Source: Rhizophagus irregularis (lineage: Eukaryota; Glomeromycota; Glomeromycetes; Glomerales; Glomeraceae). Taken from it: a stretch of DNA of 64,000 bases. Shown here in pieces: positions 4,185 through 27,539 of the stretch. The stretch covers positions 1,860,001-1,924,000 of the forward strand of contig NC_089429.1 in NCBI RefSeq assembly GCF_026210795.1, given 5' to 3'. Under the pieces are notes generated by a model. It was given only the letters and a program-made list of their open reading frames with translations, did no database searches and was not told where the DNA came from. The position numbers were made by a program, and so were the translations under genes. The stretch's first letter is position 1. Each line of letters begins with the position of its first letter.

Positions 4185-5384
4185 TTACATACCTAATTTC
4201 TTCAAATTAAACATGCATTCATTCAAATCTCCGCTTACTAGCATTTCACTCACTTGTACACTAGTTTGTGAATTTTTACTTTCAAGAATTTCATTCAATT
4301 GTTCACTAGTAAAATCAAGTAAGCGACTTGTATAAAAAGCCTGTGAGTGAGATTCAGTAGCAAGATTGTTATGCCCAATTGGTGCATTTATAAATTCCAT
4401 AATATTGCATTTTAATTCTTCATTAATTTCTTCAATTTTCTTACCATAAGGAGGAAAAATCCATTCATAAATAATTTTTAAAACTTCCTTAGAAGATGGC
4501 CTTTTTAATGGATCTTTATCCCAACATTTTTTCATCAAATCTACATAGCATTGTGGAGTATTTTCAATAATTTCAGGACGTTTACCTTCACAAATACTTA
4601 AACTAAGTTGAATATCATGTGCTCTATTATTATATGGTGGTATTCCAGATGTAAATTCCCACATAATCATAGAAAAACTGTATATATCACTAGCTGGAGT
4701 ATAAGATTTACCTCTTAAAACTTCAGGTGCCATAAATGGTACAACACCATAAATATCATATTTTTTCAAAAATGATTTTACAGGTTTACATAATCCTAAA
4801 TCACTAATATAAATTTTACTCTCATTATGATTTAAAATATTGCCATCATGAAGATCACAATGAATAAGATTTTGTTTATGTATATTATCAAGTCCAGAAA
4901 TAATTTCATACAACATGTATAATTTTTGATCCCAATCACTTTCAATTATTCTTGTTAAGTTTTCTCTTAAATTACCTTTGTTTGCATAATCCATTACTGC
5001 CATATATTTCAAAGTATCTGGATTTTTTGTAAATCCATAAAAATAGATAATTTCAAATGAATTTAAACAACTTTCATGATATTTCCACTATAAAAAATAA
5101 TAAACATATTAATATAAGTAAATTATAATTTAAATTAAAAAAATAAATAATATAAATATCATACTTCATTTAAAAATTCATTTAAATTTTCATTTAAAGT
5201 ATTATGGCATTTGAGAATTACATCTTTATTATCTCCATCATTCATCAACCATGTAGCTTTATATATAGTACCAAACCCTCCTTCATTAAGATATTCAACA
5301 TTTTTAAATTTATTATAAGGAATCCATCTTAACATTTTTTCATGAATAAATTTATCTATGATTTTATTTCCACTTTTTCCAAAT
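4185..5384 (-). CDS. Protein kinase domain, last two large exons of a multi-exon kinase gene
   Basis: Two exons: 5165-5384 and 4185-5087, joined by a 77-nt GT..AG intron (5088-5164). The upstream exon encodes FGKSGNKIIDKFI, then IPYNKFKNVEYLNEGGFGTI (Gly-rich loop) and VILKCHN (ATP lysine). The downstream exon begins WKYHESCLNSFEIIYFYGF and carries HCDLHDGN (catalytic loop with Arg replaced by Cys), DLG, APE (MAPEVLRG), SDIYSFSMIMWE and the CW..DP..RP subdomain XI signature, then a C-terminal tail with FYTSRLLDF. Ser/Thr kinase-like; Asp and Asn of the catalytic loop are kept, so it may be active. The stop follows TTAG|GTATGT, which could be another donor, so a longer tail is possible. The exon at 5384 starts with a single base completing a codon, so more exons lie upstream. 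Confidence 0.9.
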
Positions 5385-5439
5385 CTATAATTTAAAAAAT
5401 TAAAATTATATTAAAGTTTATAATAAAATTTACACTGAA

Positions 5440-8283
5440 ATTTAAGATTAAAATTAACACTTACTCTAAAATTTAAATAGGAATTTAAGATAATATATGT
5501 CTTAGTTTTTTGTATAAATATTTATAATAATACATAACCTACCAACTAAAGTAATAGAAATTTTAAAATAAAAGAATACAGTTAACAAATAAATATTATT
5601 AAAATATATAACAATAGAAATAACAAATAACTTACAAGCTTTATTATTAAATAATTTTTTAAATAAAGAATTTAGTTAGTTTAAATTATGTGTATATATT
5701 ATAACAATAAATAATAATAGAATTAAATAAATAACTTATAACTTACGATCTATTAAATAAATAATTTAGTTAGTTTAAATTATATGTAAATATTATAACA
5801 ATAAGTAATAATAGAAATGAATAAATAACTTACTAACTAAAAGAAATTACAAAATAATTTTTTAAATAAAGAATTTAGTTTATATGTAAATATTATAATA
5901 ATAAGTACTGATAATAGAATTAAATAAATAACTTACTCTCTATATTATTTAAATAATTATTTAAATAAAGAATTTAGTTTAACTTATACGTAAAAATCTT
6001 AACAATAAGTAATAATAAAATTAAATAACCTACCAACTAAAGAAATTACAAAAATAATTTTATAAATAAAGAATTTAGTTAGTTTAAATTATATGCAAAT
6101 ATTATTGTAACAATAAGTAATAATAGAATTAATTAATAACTTACACCCTATATTATTTAAATAATTTTTTAAATAAAGAATTTAGTTAATTTAAATTATA
6201 TGCAAATATTCAGTTATAACAAAGTAATAGTAATAAATAACTTACACCCTATATTATTTAATTTAAATAATTTAAATAAAGAATTTAGTTAATTTAAATT
6301 ATATGCAAATATTATAACAATAAGTAAATATAGAATTAAATAAATAACTTATAACTTACGATCTATTAATAAATAAAGAATTTAGTTAGTTTACATTATA
6401 TGTAAATATTATAAAATAGAATTAAATAAATAACTTACCAACTAAAAGAAATTACAAAATAATTTTTTAAATAAAGAATATATTTATTTAGTTAGGTTAA
6501 ATTATATGTAAATATTATAATAATAAGTAATAATAGAATTAAATAAATAACTTATAGCTTACGATCTATTAAATAAAGAATTTAGTTAGTTTAAATTATA
6601 TGCAAATATTATAACAATAAGTAATAATAGAATTAAATAAATAACTTATAACTTACGATCTATTAAATAAGAATTTAATTAGTTTAAATTATATGTAAAT
6701 ATTATAAAAATAAGTAATAATAGAATCAAATAAATAACTTACACCCTATATTATTTAAATAATTTTTTAAATAAAGGAATTTAATTAGTTTAAATTATAT
6801 GCAAATATTATAACAATAAGTAATAATAAAATTAAATAAATAACTTATAACTTACGATCTATTAAATAAAGAATTAAATTAGTTTAAATTATATGTAAAT
6901 ATTATAAAAATAAGTTAAATAAATAACTTATAACTTACGATCTATTAAATAAAGTATTTAGTTAGTTTAAATCATATATTATAACAATAAGTAATAATAG
7001 AATTAAATAAATAACTTACTCTCTATATTATTATTTAAATAATTTTTAAATAAAGAATTTAATTAGTTTAAATTATATGTAAATATTATAACAACAAGTA
7101 ATAATAGAATTAAATAAATAACTTACCAACTAAAAGAAATTACATTAAATAAAGAATTTAATTAGTTTAAATTATATGTTAATATTATAACAACAAGTAA
7201 TAATACTAGTATTAAATAAATAACTTATAACTTACGATCTATTAAATAAAGAAATTAGATAGTTTAAATTATATGTAAATATTATAACAATAAGTAATAA
7301 TAGAATTAAATAAATAACTTATAACTTACGATCTATTAAATAAGAATTTAGTTAGTTTAAATTATATGTAAATGTTATAACAATAAGCAATTGAATTAAA
7401 TAAATAACTTACTCTCTATATTATTTAAATAAATAAAGAAATTAGTTAGTTTAAATTATATATAAATATTATAACAATAAGTTATAATAGAATTAAATAA
7501 ATAACTTACTCTCTATATTAGTATTTAATGATTTTTAAATAAAGAATTTAGTTTAAATTAAATATTATAATAATAAGTAATAATAGAATTAAATAAATAA
7601 CTTACTTTCTATATTATTTAAATAATTTTTTAAATAAATAATTTAGTTAGATTAAATTATATTTAAATAGCAATAAGTAATGATAGAATTAAATAAATAA
7701 CTTATAACTTACGATCTATTAAACAAAGAATTAAGTTAGTTTAAATCATATACAAATATTATAACAATAAGTAATAATAGAATTAAATAAATAACTTACC
7801 AACTAAAAGAAATTACAAAATAATTTTTTAAATAAAGAATTTAGTTAGCTTAAATATAGAAATATAGACGTCATATAACTTACACCCTGTAGTATTATTA
7901 ATTTTTAATCAGTTAGGTATAAATATAATAGGAAAGTATTTACTATAAATTAATATATCACTTACAATCTATTTAAATTAAAAATATAATTAGTTAAATT
8001 ATATTAAAATATTAGATGTCAATAAATAAATATATTAAATATAATAATATCCTTAAGTATTATAACTTACCAGCTGTAATATAATTAATTATTTATTTAA
8101 ACAAAGTATTTAGTTATTTGAGTAAAATAAACAAAGTAAAAAACTAAAAATTTAAATAACTGATAACTTACAAACTATAGTATTAATAATCATTAAATAA
8201 ATTATTTAGTTATATATATAATATAGTTAGTTTGTATTTGTACATTATGCAAGTATTTTAATATTTTTGCTTGTTTAATATAC
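5440..8283 (-). repeat. Tandem array of ~29 intron-like units separated by 3-nt candidate microexons
   Basis: Units of 79-124 nt, AT-rich and mutually similar. Read on the minus strand, each unit begins GTAAG (one GTAGG) and ends in AG, and units are separated by exactly three bases. The 28 triplets end at 8174, 8073, 7968, 7886, 7802, 7715, 7608, 7512, 7415, 7332, 7238, 7129, 7022, 6941, 6858, 6745, 6659, 6565, 6441, 6362, 6248, 6147, 6036, 5939, 5836, 5749, 5638 and 5545; a 1-nt gap follows at 5465. Triplets vary (ATC nine times, TTG five, AGA and GGT four each, six singletons) while the flanking AG and GTAAG/GTAGG do not. Exon 8284-8331 ends in phase 1; 28 triplets plus one base restore frame into 5384, with no stop in the 29 joined codons. 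Splicing of every unit is a prediction. Confidence 0.8.
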
Positions 8284-8445
8284 CTGTACTCCTTTCCTTA
8301 AATCCTCCAGTATCATTTCCTTCAAACTCTACTATATTGCAAAATTGTTTAAAATTTTTATGGGATAATTCTAATTTTATATTATATATTTATGCTGTAT
8401 TATTACCTTTACTAATACATTGACCCATTACTATATCAAATTCTT
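8284..8445 (-). CDS. Two predicted upstream exons of the kinase gene
   Basis: Minus-strand exons 8406-8445 and 8284-8331 with an intron of 74 nt (8332-8405). The first reads EEFDIVMGQCISK between GATTAG and GTAATA. The second reads VEFEGNDTGGFKERST between a TATAG acceptor and ACAG|GTATAT. Only one frame of each exon is open, and these frames are compatible through phase-1 junctions. A possible earlier exon ends at 8506 (ACTAATAAG|GTATTT), giving an intron of 60 nt (8446-8505), but its reading back to about 8613 (hydrophobic, IFICTNK at the end) is weak and no start codon is certain. The zinc ribbon seen in the sister kinase was not found. Function is inferred from position 5' of the kinase domain. 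Confidence 0.55.
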
Positions 8446-23225: not shown

Positions 23226-23576
23226 AAAGAGAATAAATTTTTATAATAAAAATTTATTATAAATATTTTTTTTTTCGAAATCGTAATTATCCCCTCATCA
23301 TAACTTACTTAAAACATTTATTTTGAAATTCTGGAGGAATATCCAGGCATTTGTTGACCCAATGACCATTTTTTTACAAAAAATACACGTGTTACTGTCT
23401 TCCTTAAACAAGATGCACTTTTGATTTTTCTAGTCCAAATATAGTAAATTAAGTTATTATTAACCGAATGCAATAAATCAAAGTTATTAATATGGCAAGC
23501 CGAGCTGGACTAAACTATCAGGCATTGGGCGGGTGAAAAATCAAGCATGGATTGACAAAATATTACACCGTGCCTG

Positions 23577-23990
23577 ACATTTTACCTGTTCATGCTTGAT
23601 ATTCATCTGTCCGTGCTTGATATTTATCTGTACGTGTTTGATATTTTTATCTGTTCATGCTTGATGTTTATCTATCACGTGCTTGATATTTTTATCTGTT
23701 CATGCTTGATGTTTATCTGTACGTGCTTGATGTTTTATCTGTACGTGCTTGATGTTTTATCTGTACGTGCTTGATGTTTTATCTGTACCGTGCTTGATGT
23801 TTATCTGTATGTGCTTGATATTTATCTGTACGTGCTTGATGGTTTTATCTGTACGTGCTTGATAGTTTTATCTGACCATGCTTGACATTTTTATCCGTCC
23901 GTGCTTTATGTTTTTATCCATTTGTGCTTGATATTTTTGTCCGTCTGTGCTTGATGTTTTTGTCCAACTGTGTTTGATTTAATCCAACTA
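23577..23990 (+). repeat. ~22-bp minisatellite, left arm of foldback element
   Basis: About 17 copies of a unit of the form CGTGCTTGATGTTTTATCTG, with 20-24-bp length variants. Its reverse complement forms the matching array at 27060-27430. Confidence 0.88.
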
Positions 23991-25164
23991 TGTTTGATAA
24001 TTTTATCTTTGTCAAAAATTAGTTTCTTTGTCAGCACAGGGTTGATATATTGTTGGTCACATGTTTTTAAGTTTAGCGTAGTTTTAAAAAAAAATTTTTT
24101 TTTTTATTGGCTTTTTTTTATAAACAAATTTTGTAGAGAATTTTTATTTTTAATATAGGCAAAGGCTTTGTTTGGTAGAATTTCTTTGGGAATTTTTTAA
24201 TAAGATTGATAAAAAATTTCGTTAGAAAATTTTTTTCATTGATAGGGACATTTCTGAGTTTTTTTTTTTGATGATAATTTCGGAGAATTTTTTTTAATAA
24301 GATTTTTTTTTTGACATATACTTAATTTGTTGGAACAATTTTTTCTTTTAACAGGAGAGATTTTTTTTTTTTTGATAGAGAATTAATTGAGAATTTTTTT
24401 TTTTGTAGAAAATTATTTGAAGAATTTTTTTAATAGGGAAGATTTTTTTTTGATAGATAATTTCGTTACTAAAAATTTTTTTAACAAGTGAGATTTTTTT
24501 TTGATAGAGAATTTCGTTAAGAATTTTTTTTTAATAGGAGGGAGTTTTCCTTGATAAAGAATTCTTTTGGGAATTTTTTTTAATAGTATTTTTGACGGAG
24601 AATTTTATTAGAGAATTTTTTTTTTTTTTTGATAGAAATTTCATCATAGAATTTTTTTTTAATAGGTAAGATTTTTTTTTTTTTTTTGATAAAATCATTT
24701 CGTTAATAATTTTTTTAACAGGAGATTTTTTTTTTGATAGAAAATTTCGGTAAAGAATTTTTTTTTTAATAGGAAGGAAGTTTTTTTTTATAGAAATTCT
24801 TTTGAAAACTTTTTTTAATAGGTAAGAATCTTTGAATTTTTTTTTAATAGGGAAAATGTATTTTTTGATGGAAGATTTTTGTTAGAAATTTTTCTTAATC
24901 ATGGATATTTTTTTTGATTGAGAATTTCATTAGAGAATTGTTGGTTGAAAAGCCTTTTTATTTTTTTGATGGAGAATTTTGTTAGAAGTCTCAATAGAAA
25001 ATTTTATTGAAAATAGTTTTTTTTTAATAAGGGTATCGAGAATTTTGGCTTGAAATTTTTTTTTTTAATAAAGAATTTCATTAGAGATCTTTTTTTTTTA
25101 TAAAAAATTGATTGAAAATTTATTGGAAAATTTTTTATTAAATTTTACAATTTTAATAAATTTT

Positions 25165-25645
25165 TACTCCTCTTCATCTTCCCATTACTTCTTTTAATCT
25201 TCCATCGCTCCTTTTCGTCTCCCATCACTCCTTTTTGTCTCCTATCACTCCTTTTCGTCTCCCATCACTCTTTTTCGTCTCCCATCGCTCCCTTTCGTCT
25301 CCTATCACTTCTCTTAATCTTCTCATCACTTCTTTTCGTCTCCCATCACTCCTTTTCGTCTCCCATCACTCCTCTTAATCTTCCCATCACTTCTTTTCGT
25401 CACTCATCACTCCTCTTAATCTTCTCATCACTTCTTTTCGTCTCCCATCACTCCTTTTTATCTCCCATCACTCCTCTTCATCACCCATCACACCTCTTTG
25501 TCTCCCATTACTTCTTTTCGTCTTTCATCACTTCTTTTTGTCTCCCATCACTCCTCTTAATCTTCCCATCACTTCTTTTTTTTTATCTCCCATCACTCTT
25601 CTTTGTCACCCATCACTTCTTTTCATCTCTCATCATGTCCTATTT
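25165..25645 (+). repeat. ~21-bp pyrimidine-rich minisatellite in foldback loop
   Basis: More than 20 copies of a unit like CTTTTCGTCTCCCATCACTC, with variants CTCTTAATCTTCCCATCACT. The plus strand is almost wholly C+T, a composition able to form triplex (H-DNA). ORFs through it are artefacts of the period. Confidence 0.88.
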
Positions 25646-27059
25646 CTTCTTTTGGTTCCTATCACTTCTTATTACTCTTTTTTACTCCCTTTCATCTTCT
25701 ATTACTTTCCATTACTCCATTGTTATTTTATTTTTTTTCCTTGATCATTGTAATTTACTTATCTTTTTTATTTATTGTTATTGTTTCTTTTATTTGTACA
25801 TTTCAATAAAAATAAATATGGTGATTTTATTCTTTAAAATCGTAAATGTGACTTAAATTTTAATATTTGTAAATAAAATTTCATTAAATAAGATTATTTT
25901 GAATAAATATGTTTGCAAAAAAATTTTTTTAAAAAATATCTATAATAACCGATCAAAAATTAGATACATATTTGAAAAAAAAACCCCAGGCGATGATCGC
26001 CTAGGCGACATTTAGCAATCCCAATTTTTATTTATATATATTAAAAGTATTTAAAATAGTAGATTTTCAAAAATGTTTTTATGCCAATTAATGATAAAAA
26101 GAAGAAACACTGCAAACAAATTTCTGCTATATACTTTTCTTAAAGTTAACATTATTAACTTTTTAATTTATGTCGGCTCATGCGGAGCTTTACTAGTATA
26201 TAAAATTTGCTTAATTTACTATGCTACTTAGGATTCTATCATAGTTTTTTTTAATTTTATCTTGATCTTATTAATGTAATTTAGTATTTTTTTTAATTTT
26301 ATAAAAAAAGATCTCTAATGAAATTCTTTATTAAAAAAAAAAATTTCAAGCCAAAATTCTCGATACCCTTATTAAAAAAAAACTATTTTCAATAAAATTT
26401 TCTATTAAAAAAAAACAAAATATTTTGTTATAAAGTATAGAAAAGAGTAAAATGTATTGTAAGAAAAAAATTGAGACTTCTAACAAAATTCTCCATCAAA
26501 AAAATAAAAAAACTTTTCAACCAACAATTCTCTAATGAAATTCTCAATCAAAAAAAAATATCCCTGATTAAGAAAAATTTCTAACGAAAATCTTCCATCA
26601 AAAAATACATTTTCCCTATTAAAAAAAAAATTCTTTACCGAAATTTTCTATCAAAAAAAAAATTTCCTGTTAAAAAAATTATTAACGAAATGATCTATCA
26701 AAAAAAAAAATCTTACCTATTAAAAAAAAAATTCTATGATGAAATTTATATCAAAAAAAAAAAAAAAATTCTCTAATAAAATTCTCTGTCAAAAAATACT
26801 TTCACTTATTAAAAAAAATTCCCAAAAGAATTCTTTATCAAGGAAAACTCCCTCCTATTAAAAAAAAATTCTTAACGAAATTCTCTATCAAAAAAAAATC
26901 TCACTTGTTAAAAAAAATTTTCTAGTAACGAAATTATCTATCAAAAAAAAAATCTTCCCTATAAACTTAAAACATGTGACCAACAATATATCAACCCTGT
27001 GCTGACAAAGAAACTAATTTTTGACAAAGATAAAATTATTGAACATAGTTGGATTAAAT

Positions 27060-27430
27060 CAAACACAGTTGGACAAAAACATCAAGCACAGACGGACAAA
27101 AATATCAAGCACAGATGGATAAAAACATAAAGCATGGACGGATAAAAATGTCAAGCATGGTCGGATAAAACCATCAAGCACGTACAGATAAAACCATCAA
27201 GCACGTACAGATAAATATCAAGCACGTACAGATAAACATCAAACACGTACAGATAAAACATCAAGCACGTACAGATAAAACATCAAGCATGTACAGATAA
27301 ACATCAAGCATGAACAGATAAAAATATCAAGCACGTGATAGATAAACATCAAGCATGAACAGATAAAAATATCAAGCACGGGACAGATGAAAATCAAGCA
27401 TAAACAGGTAAAATGTCAGACACAGAGTGA
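27060..27430 (-). repeat. ~22-bp minisatellite, right arm of foldback element
   Basis: Reverse complement of the left-arm array (units of the form ATCAAGCACGTACAGATAAA). Copy order and variants differ from the left array, so the arms have diverged by unit gain and loss. Confidence 0.88.
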
Positions 27431-27539
27431 CATTTTGTCTAGCCATGCTTGATATTTTATCGCGCAATGTCTGATAATTTTGTCCAACTCGGCTTGCCAT
27501 ATATTAATTAAATAACTTTACAGTACGTATTTACCTGGT

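Follow-up and report, generated by a model that had tools for sequence, protein, structure and literature searches.

The stretch analyzed here, herein referred to as the window, comprises 64,000 nucleotides of the Rhizophagus irregularis genome (contig NC_089429.1, positions 1,860,001 to 1,924,000). On its minus strand lies a protein kinase gene in which 28 units of the form AG-NNN-GTA[AG]G follow one another and are closed by a unit AG-A-GTAAG. We put the probability at about 0.9 that this array is coding, each triplet being a constitutive one-codon exon, entered and left in phase 1, between complete spliceosomal introns. An earlier note on this DNA had proposed such serial exons of one codon each, every one accompanied by its own copy of a tandemly duplicated intron. 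The proposal is supported by the avoidance of stop codons at junctions of neighboring triplets, by compensation between triplets and donors, by branch-point motifs, and by recurrence of the arrays in related genes.

Stop Codons at Triplet Junctions

The genome (32 contigs, 146,748,485 bases) was searched with the linker and the first kinase exon as the query, and at least 151 matches were found. Forty paralogs, in two batches of 20 spread over the ranks of the match list and not chosen at random, were read together with the window gene, 41 genes in all. Arrays were read by a dynamic program in which exon length was free between 1 and 12 nt and each intron carried a cost. For the stop test, the last base of a triplet and the first two bases of the next were taken as a codon, with T followed by AA, AG, or GA counted as a stop. 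Runs were split at introns longer than 140 nt and at exons with lengths not a multiple of three; the paralogs L019, L043, and L044 contributed no units. Five program exons of 7 or 10 nt were taken as 3-nt exons with a weaker donor in the stop tests of the separate batches. The combined stop and donor tests include four such reset exons, the fifth (L020) being a misreading.

In the predicted phase, no stop was found at the 1,018 neighbor junctions of the combined set or among their 414 distinct pairs, while within-gene shuffles gave a mean of 31.5 stops and a minimum of 14 in 3,000. The first batch had none at 531 junctions (shuffle mean 13.4, minimum 3 of 5,000). The hold-out batch of 20 paralogs, for which the predictions were written beforehand, had none at 502, where 2,000 shuffles gave a mean of 18.2 and a minimum of 7. 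Stop counts in the two remaining phases were 1 and 81 for the first batch, and 3 and 80 for the hold-out batch. Intron trinucleotides put through the identical test at 28 offsets showed no depletion, with ratios from 0.84 to 1.33. An absence of stops confined to neighbors in one phase is explained only by the joining of direct neighbors in that phase. Selection on these junctions, as it appears in the DNA, indicates that adjacent triplets are joined and translated.

Triplets lying two to six steps apart behave like the shuffles, with stops in 33/949, 29/884, 24/827, 29/773, and 25/721 joins at lags 2, 3, 4, 5, and 6, respectively; regular skipping is therefore disfavored. These figures bear on an alternative in which the triplets are used, though not all of them in each messenger RNA (mRNA), so that each gene, through variable skipping, would yield isoforms that differ in length and remain in frame. 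Whichever 3-nt exons are included, the frame is kept, and very short exons are generally difficult for the spliceosome, as stated of micro-exons in PMC4317164. However, skip junctions appear unguarded, with about 3 to 4 stops per 100 joins, whereas neighbor junctions have none, and we regard variable skipping as unlikely.

Codon use in the predicted phase was the closest to that of the kinase exons, with a mean log probability of -4.21, the two alternative phases scoring -4.77 and -5.44; shuffles (n = 500) gave a mean of -4.42 and a best value of -4.32. The peptide from the joined triplets is hydrophilic (grand average of hydropathy, -0.99). If retained, 1,035 introns, out of a total not above 1,078, would bring in an in-frame stop.

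Splice Signals and Donor Compensation

The array introns have the features of U2-type introns, namely GT-AG ends, a branch-point motif, and U1-like donor pairing. The donor is GTAAGT in 922 of the 1,078 array introns and the acceptor is AG in all of them. The branch-point motif CTRAY was found 12–70 nt upstream of the acceptor in 809 introns, compared with 161 after shuffling.

A G at position -1 before a weak donor is expected from pairing with U1 RNA. The last exon base is G in 259/923 cases (28%) before GTAAGT, in 72/138 (52%) before other GT donors, and in 13/15 before GC donors. Counted over distinct gene-triplet-donor sets, the figures are 128/475, 53/113, and 6/8, respectively. The difference between GTAAGT and all other donors is significant for distinct sets (Fisher p 9e-6) and for each batch (0.0014 and 0.0022). 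All 15 GC donors found over all genes are GCAAGT; most of them belong to L023 and they stand mainly after ATG triplets.

Distribution of the Arrays in the Genome

Arrays were found by the program in 19 of the 20 paralogs of the first batch and in 18 of the 20 of the second, which together with the window gene makes 38 of the 41 genes. In L043 and L044, where the program misplaced the end point, arrays were recognized by eye. Altogether, 1,077 3-nt exons were read in 38 genes, with 5 to 42 per gene; this count treats as 3-nt exons five that the program had read as longer, the raw count being 1,072. With the exon length left free, 1,072 of 1,139 exons are 3 nt long, 43 are 1 nt, 13 are 6 nt, and 11 have other lengths. 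The 1-nt exons are mostly terminal (37 of 43), and a terminal 1-nt exon closes 37 of the 38 program-scored arrays. The lengths of the array introns are spread evenly over the three residues modulo 3 (365, 363, and 350), and the exon lengths unevenly. Among paralogs, the ends of the arrays can be recognized as (CTC) TTT CTG ATT GGT ... CTT TTG A.

The pattern ATAG-N{0,9}-GTAAGTTATTTATT has 777 + 836 = 1,613 matches in the genome and its reversed control 1 + 0, so the array units are not due to chance. Among 100 matches listed, the gap is 3 nt in 99 and 6 nt in 1. This pattern recovers 317 of the 1,077 3-nt exons read; if that share holds everywhere, the genome would contain, as a rough estimate, 5,500 of them. 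For R. irregularis as a whole, 2,533 kinases are given in PMC10234402. Of six places read that have pattern matches off the listed kinase matches, three (L046–L048) have a kinase within ~2 kb and three (L049–L051) are lone units. A long array of ~85 units (L045) was kept outside all tallies. No intronless (processed) copy of an array that is open through the linker was found among the genome matches listed.

The lone units L049–L051, standing apart from kinase genes, could also be expected of a minisatellite whose conserved core resembles splice sites by chance, in decaying genes. Tandem Repeats Finder likewise describes the window array as a 94-bp repeat. Against such an origin, all three splice signals recur, the triplets vary freely between a fixed AG and a fixed GT, 33 of 38 arrays are intact, and the compared kinase parts are free of stops. 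We consider it extremely improbable.

Arrays With Lesions

In eight arrays, the program had read internal exons with lengths that are not multiples of three, and these were flagged; one more array (L035) lacks the terminal 1-nt exon. The lesions in L011, L018, L022, and L034 were rejected as misreadings, caused by an intron insertion, a spurious first donor, or the wrong AG of AGAGA. After inspection, 33 of the 38 program-scored arrays are intact.

The remaining observations weigh against coding arrays. Real lesions were found in five program-scored arrays: a weakened donor in L017, a lost acceptor in L020, two 2-nt exons and the loss of one triplet in L025, the missing terminal 1-nt exon in L035, and a 1-nt exon inside the array of L039. 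An assembly error is possible for L025, because its 2-nt exons read GA whereas the corresponding exon of its third copy is GGA and lies in a run of G. One further gene of the 41 read (L019) has no array, and foreign sequence directly precedes its 1-nt exon. The prediction of exon lengths limited to 1, 3, 6, and 9 failed in part, the hold-out batch having three 2-nt exons, one 4-nt exon, and one 10-nt exon. The dynamic program reads the long array L045 with stops and with seven exons that are not 3 nt; the reading by pattern is free of stops. Finally, the paralogs share descent, so the junctions in the stop test are not all independent.

Organization of the Window Gene

The joined open reading frame of the window gene encodes 425 amino acids. 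Exon 1 (8407..8428, minus strand, as are all features of this gene) contains the ATG start, encodes MGQCISK, and ends in phase 1; its MGxxxS start may be an N-myristoylation-like signal. Exon 2 (8284..8331, 48 nt) also ends in phase 1. The upstream exon is open, with an exit phase identical to that of window exon 2, in the 10 paralogs for which a matching donor was located. The array (5385..8283) separates exon 2 from the first kinase exon, contains 30 introns of the form GTA[AG]G...AG, each 76–121 nt long, and is recognized as a tandem repeat by Tandem Repeats Finder as well. It is followed by kinase exon 1 (5165..5384, FGKSGN...FLNE), which has at least 151 related matches in the genome, and by kinase exon 2 (4185..5087), which runs up to the stop codon of the joined frame. 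The joined protein matches the kinase domain PF07714 with an E-value of 3.4e-43 and 148.3 bits, against a Pfam cut-off of 23.1.

The 28 units reported in the earlier note are present, with first triplet bases from 8174 to 5545. In the order of transcription, the candidate 3-nt exons are TTT (8172..8174), CTG (8071..8073), ATT (7966..7968), GGT (7884..7886), TTG (7800..7802), ATC (7713..7715), AAA (7606..7608), AGA (7510..7512), AGA (7413..7415), ATC (7330..7332), ATC (7236..7238), TTG (7127..7129), AGA (7020..7022), ATC (6939..6941), ATC (6856..6858), GGT (6743..6745), ATC (6657..6659), ATC (6563..6565), TTG (6439..6441), ATC (6360..6362), GGT (6246..6248), GGT (6145..6147), TTG (6034..6036), AGA (5937..5939), TTA (5834..5836), ATC (5747..5749), CTT (5636..5638), and TTG (5543..5545). 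They take ten values, as had been noticed: TTT, CTG, ATT, GGT, TTG, ATC, AAA, AGA, TTA, and CTT. The donor GTAGG, thought to occur once, follows two of them, exons 23 and 28 (first bases 6033 and 5542). Once joined, the triplets give VSDWFDQKKNHLENHRYHLDRWFEINPFE, then FGKSGN.

The 1-nt exon A (5465..5465, AG-A-GTAAG) takes phase 1 to phase 2 and thereby recovers the kinase frame. Direct splicing of exon 2 onto the kinase exon would break the frame, as the earlier note stated. Its further argument, that the frame calls for the 28 3-nt exons, fails and was dropped as support for them: any number of 3-nt exons is frame-neutral and the 1-nt exon alone suffices, so the frame carries no information on the triplets. 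As for the phases not chosen, one does contain stops, whereas the other is likewise open in the window array.

The frame would equally be restored if exon 2 and the 1-nt exon were separated by a single intron of ~2.8 kb with the repeats as filler, and similar repeats do occur in introns. Filler, however, predicts no avoidance of stops limited to neighbors and to one phase, nor would it link a G at position -1 to imperfect donors; moreover, the other introns of this gene, outside the array, are just 75–77 nt long. A single long intron is therefore regarded as very unlikely.

A further AG-T-GTAAAT was found at 5434, ~30 nt past the 1-nt exon and within the last intron; it occurs in 9 of 21 first-batch genes. 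This site is probably a decoy, because splicing there would cause a frameshift and would leave only ~30 nt for the intron preceding it.

Proposed Splicing of the Arrays

From the anatomy of the arrays, their recurrence in the family, the neighbor-only avoidance of stops in one phase, and the donor compensation, all visible in the DNA, we infer how the arrays are spliced and in which order, that they are translated, and what part the linker plays. In each array intron, GTAAGT would serve as the donor, a motif like CTAAC as the branch point, and TAG as the acceptor. Definition across a 3-nt exon would be impossible, and short introns with strong donors could be removed successively by intron definition. 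Every removal would lengthen the upstream exon by three bases, which would then abut the next GTAAGT donor, until the final 1-nt exon sets the phase that the kinase exon requires. The resulting protein would be a kinase with an N-terminal linker spelled residue by residue. The strong intron side of the donor would leave the triplet free to vary, and a G at position -1 would assist weak donors. If a unit of codon plus intron is duplicated or deleted in tandem, the linker would change by whole residues with the frame unaffected.

Evolution of Triplets, Introns, and Kinase Parts

Triplets and introns were compared in pairs for which the introns alone were aligned and every unit was used once. Where the paired introns are identical (55 pairs), agreement between the flanking triplets is 60% (5') and 80% (3'). 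For 31 independent pairs with introns 97 to <100% identical, they agree in 55% (5') and 58% (3'); in this group, triplet sites differ by 23 to 45% and introns by 1.4%. In an alignment of arrays between gene pairs, covering the eight best pairs, the pairs were selected for similar introns, which biases the contrast between introns and triplets toward alike introns. Diversifying selection, homogenization of introns around kept codons, or the arrival of near-identical introns could each account for triplets that are much more variable than the introns around them.

The kinase part evolves fast, yet is stop-free: compared with five relatives, it has no stops and a ratio of nonsynonymous to synonymous substitution rates of 0.57 to 0.89. 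Tandem blocks are repeated within the arrays of L011, where a series of spacings occurs twice, and of L045, and array length may therefore change by whole units. Unrelated DNA is inserted in single array introns of L005, L011, L016, L020, L022, and L023, and the array mostly reads on beyond it. The predicted reading is unharmed by the insertions in L005 and L011. The pre-array exons of L030, L013, L020, and L041 contain in-frame repeats of their own, of the EEFE-GSGT type, which thus suggest a second mode of N-terminal variation.

More tentatively, and at rather less than even odds, the arrays may represent a novel type of gene, built as a tandem repeat that is coding and has one codon plus one intron as its unit. 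It would generate diversity in a kinase family of perhaps 190 genes with ~5,500 one-codon exons, units being gained and lost in tandem, introns homogenized by recombination, and codons under diversifying selection. The linker would then vary in both length and sequence, one residue at a time and with the frame safe, in a way that suits self/non-self or partner recognition.

Should transcripts confirm the arrays, one genome would contain thousands of serial constitutive 3-nt exons, where isolated ones are curiosities. The spliceosome would add single codons dozens of times per mRNA, which would confront models of how exons and introns are defined with a stringent test, and protein length would follow the number of tandem repeats residue by residue. 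The N-terminal parts of many R. irregularis kinase models would then probably be wrong, because ordinary aligners fail to place 3-nt exons.

Other Features of the Window

A large inverted repeat was found at 23536-27457, with arms of 279 nt (97% complementary), 147 nt (98%), and 115 nt (99%). It is made of ~23-bp and ~50-bp tandem repeats, and an array of 20-bp repeats (25166-25635) lies between the arms. The structure looks like a mobile element.

Comparison With Known Systems

No serial 3-nt (one-codon) exons were found in the literature searched, which consisted of open PubMed Central papers.

A micro-exon is defined as an exon of 30 nt or less (PMC8042270), and the array exons, 1,072 of 1,139 being 3 nt long, fall well within this length. 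Runs of short exons are known from the micro-exon genes (MEGs) of Schistosoma mansoni, 35 genes for secreted proteins with introns of 100 to almost 5,000 bp and with 10 to 20 short exons per gene, 6 to 81 bp long (3-81 bp in the abstract) and mostly 15 bp (PMC10526429). The arrays resemble them in that, across a gene family, the middle of each gene is a succession of very short exons whose lengths are mostly divisible by three (PMC10526429), and the R. irregularis runs are likewise symmetric. They differ in that the array exons are almost all 3 nt, outside the range of 6-81 bp and far from the prevailing 15 bp, that the introns are ~96 nt long and repeats of one another, and that the proteins are kinases. 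An N-terminal secretion signal, typical of MEGs, was not recognized by eye in the protein of the window gene, its start MGQCISK being hydrophilic.

Single exons of comparable size are also known. The 1-nt exon of Arabidopsis APC11 is tiny and constitutive, and intron definition combined with recursive splicing is favored for it; in contrast to the arrays, it is one such exon in one gene, with no array (PMC4674806). The same source names 3 nt as the smallest alternatively spliced exon then known (PMC4674806). In Fusarium CYP621A, a 1-nt exon, described as the first in a fungal gene, was inferred from phase and relatives and confirmed by reads (PMC12940212). It is one exon per gene, with no array, whereas in R. 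irregularis a terminal 1-nt exon occurs in 37 of 38 arrays. Exons of exactly 3 nt are found in mouse Ncam and Drosophila TnT (cited in PMC8042270), although these are isolated and the Drosophila one is alternatively skipped (PMC8042270).

At the ratchet points of recursive splicing, acceptor and donor are juxtaposed and the intron is removed stepwise (PMC8605326), much as proposed for the arrays. A ratchet point AG/GT leaves nothing in the mRNA (PMC8605326), whereas each step through an R. irregularis array would leave three coding bases. In the arrays the acceptor does not directly abut the donor, three bases lying between AG and GT.

Introner elements are near-identical introns present in many copies per genome and dispersed over many genes. 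The array introns share this near-identity. Unlike introners, they are serial, three bases apart in the predicted message, and tied to one kinase family, insofar as loci of that family and another six places were read. Lone exons of 3 nt or 1 nt are thus known, as are runs of longer micro-exons, and the serial one-codon architecture is rated as new in kind, if transcripts agree.

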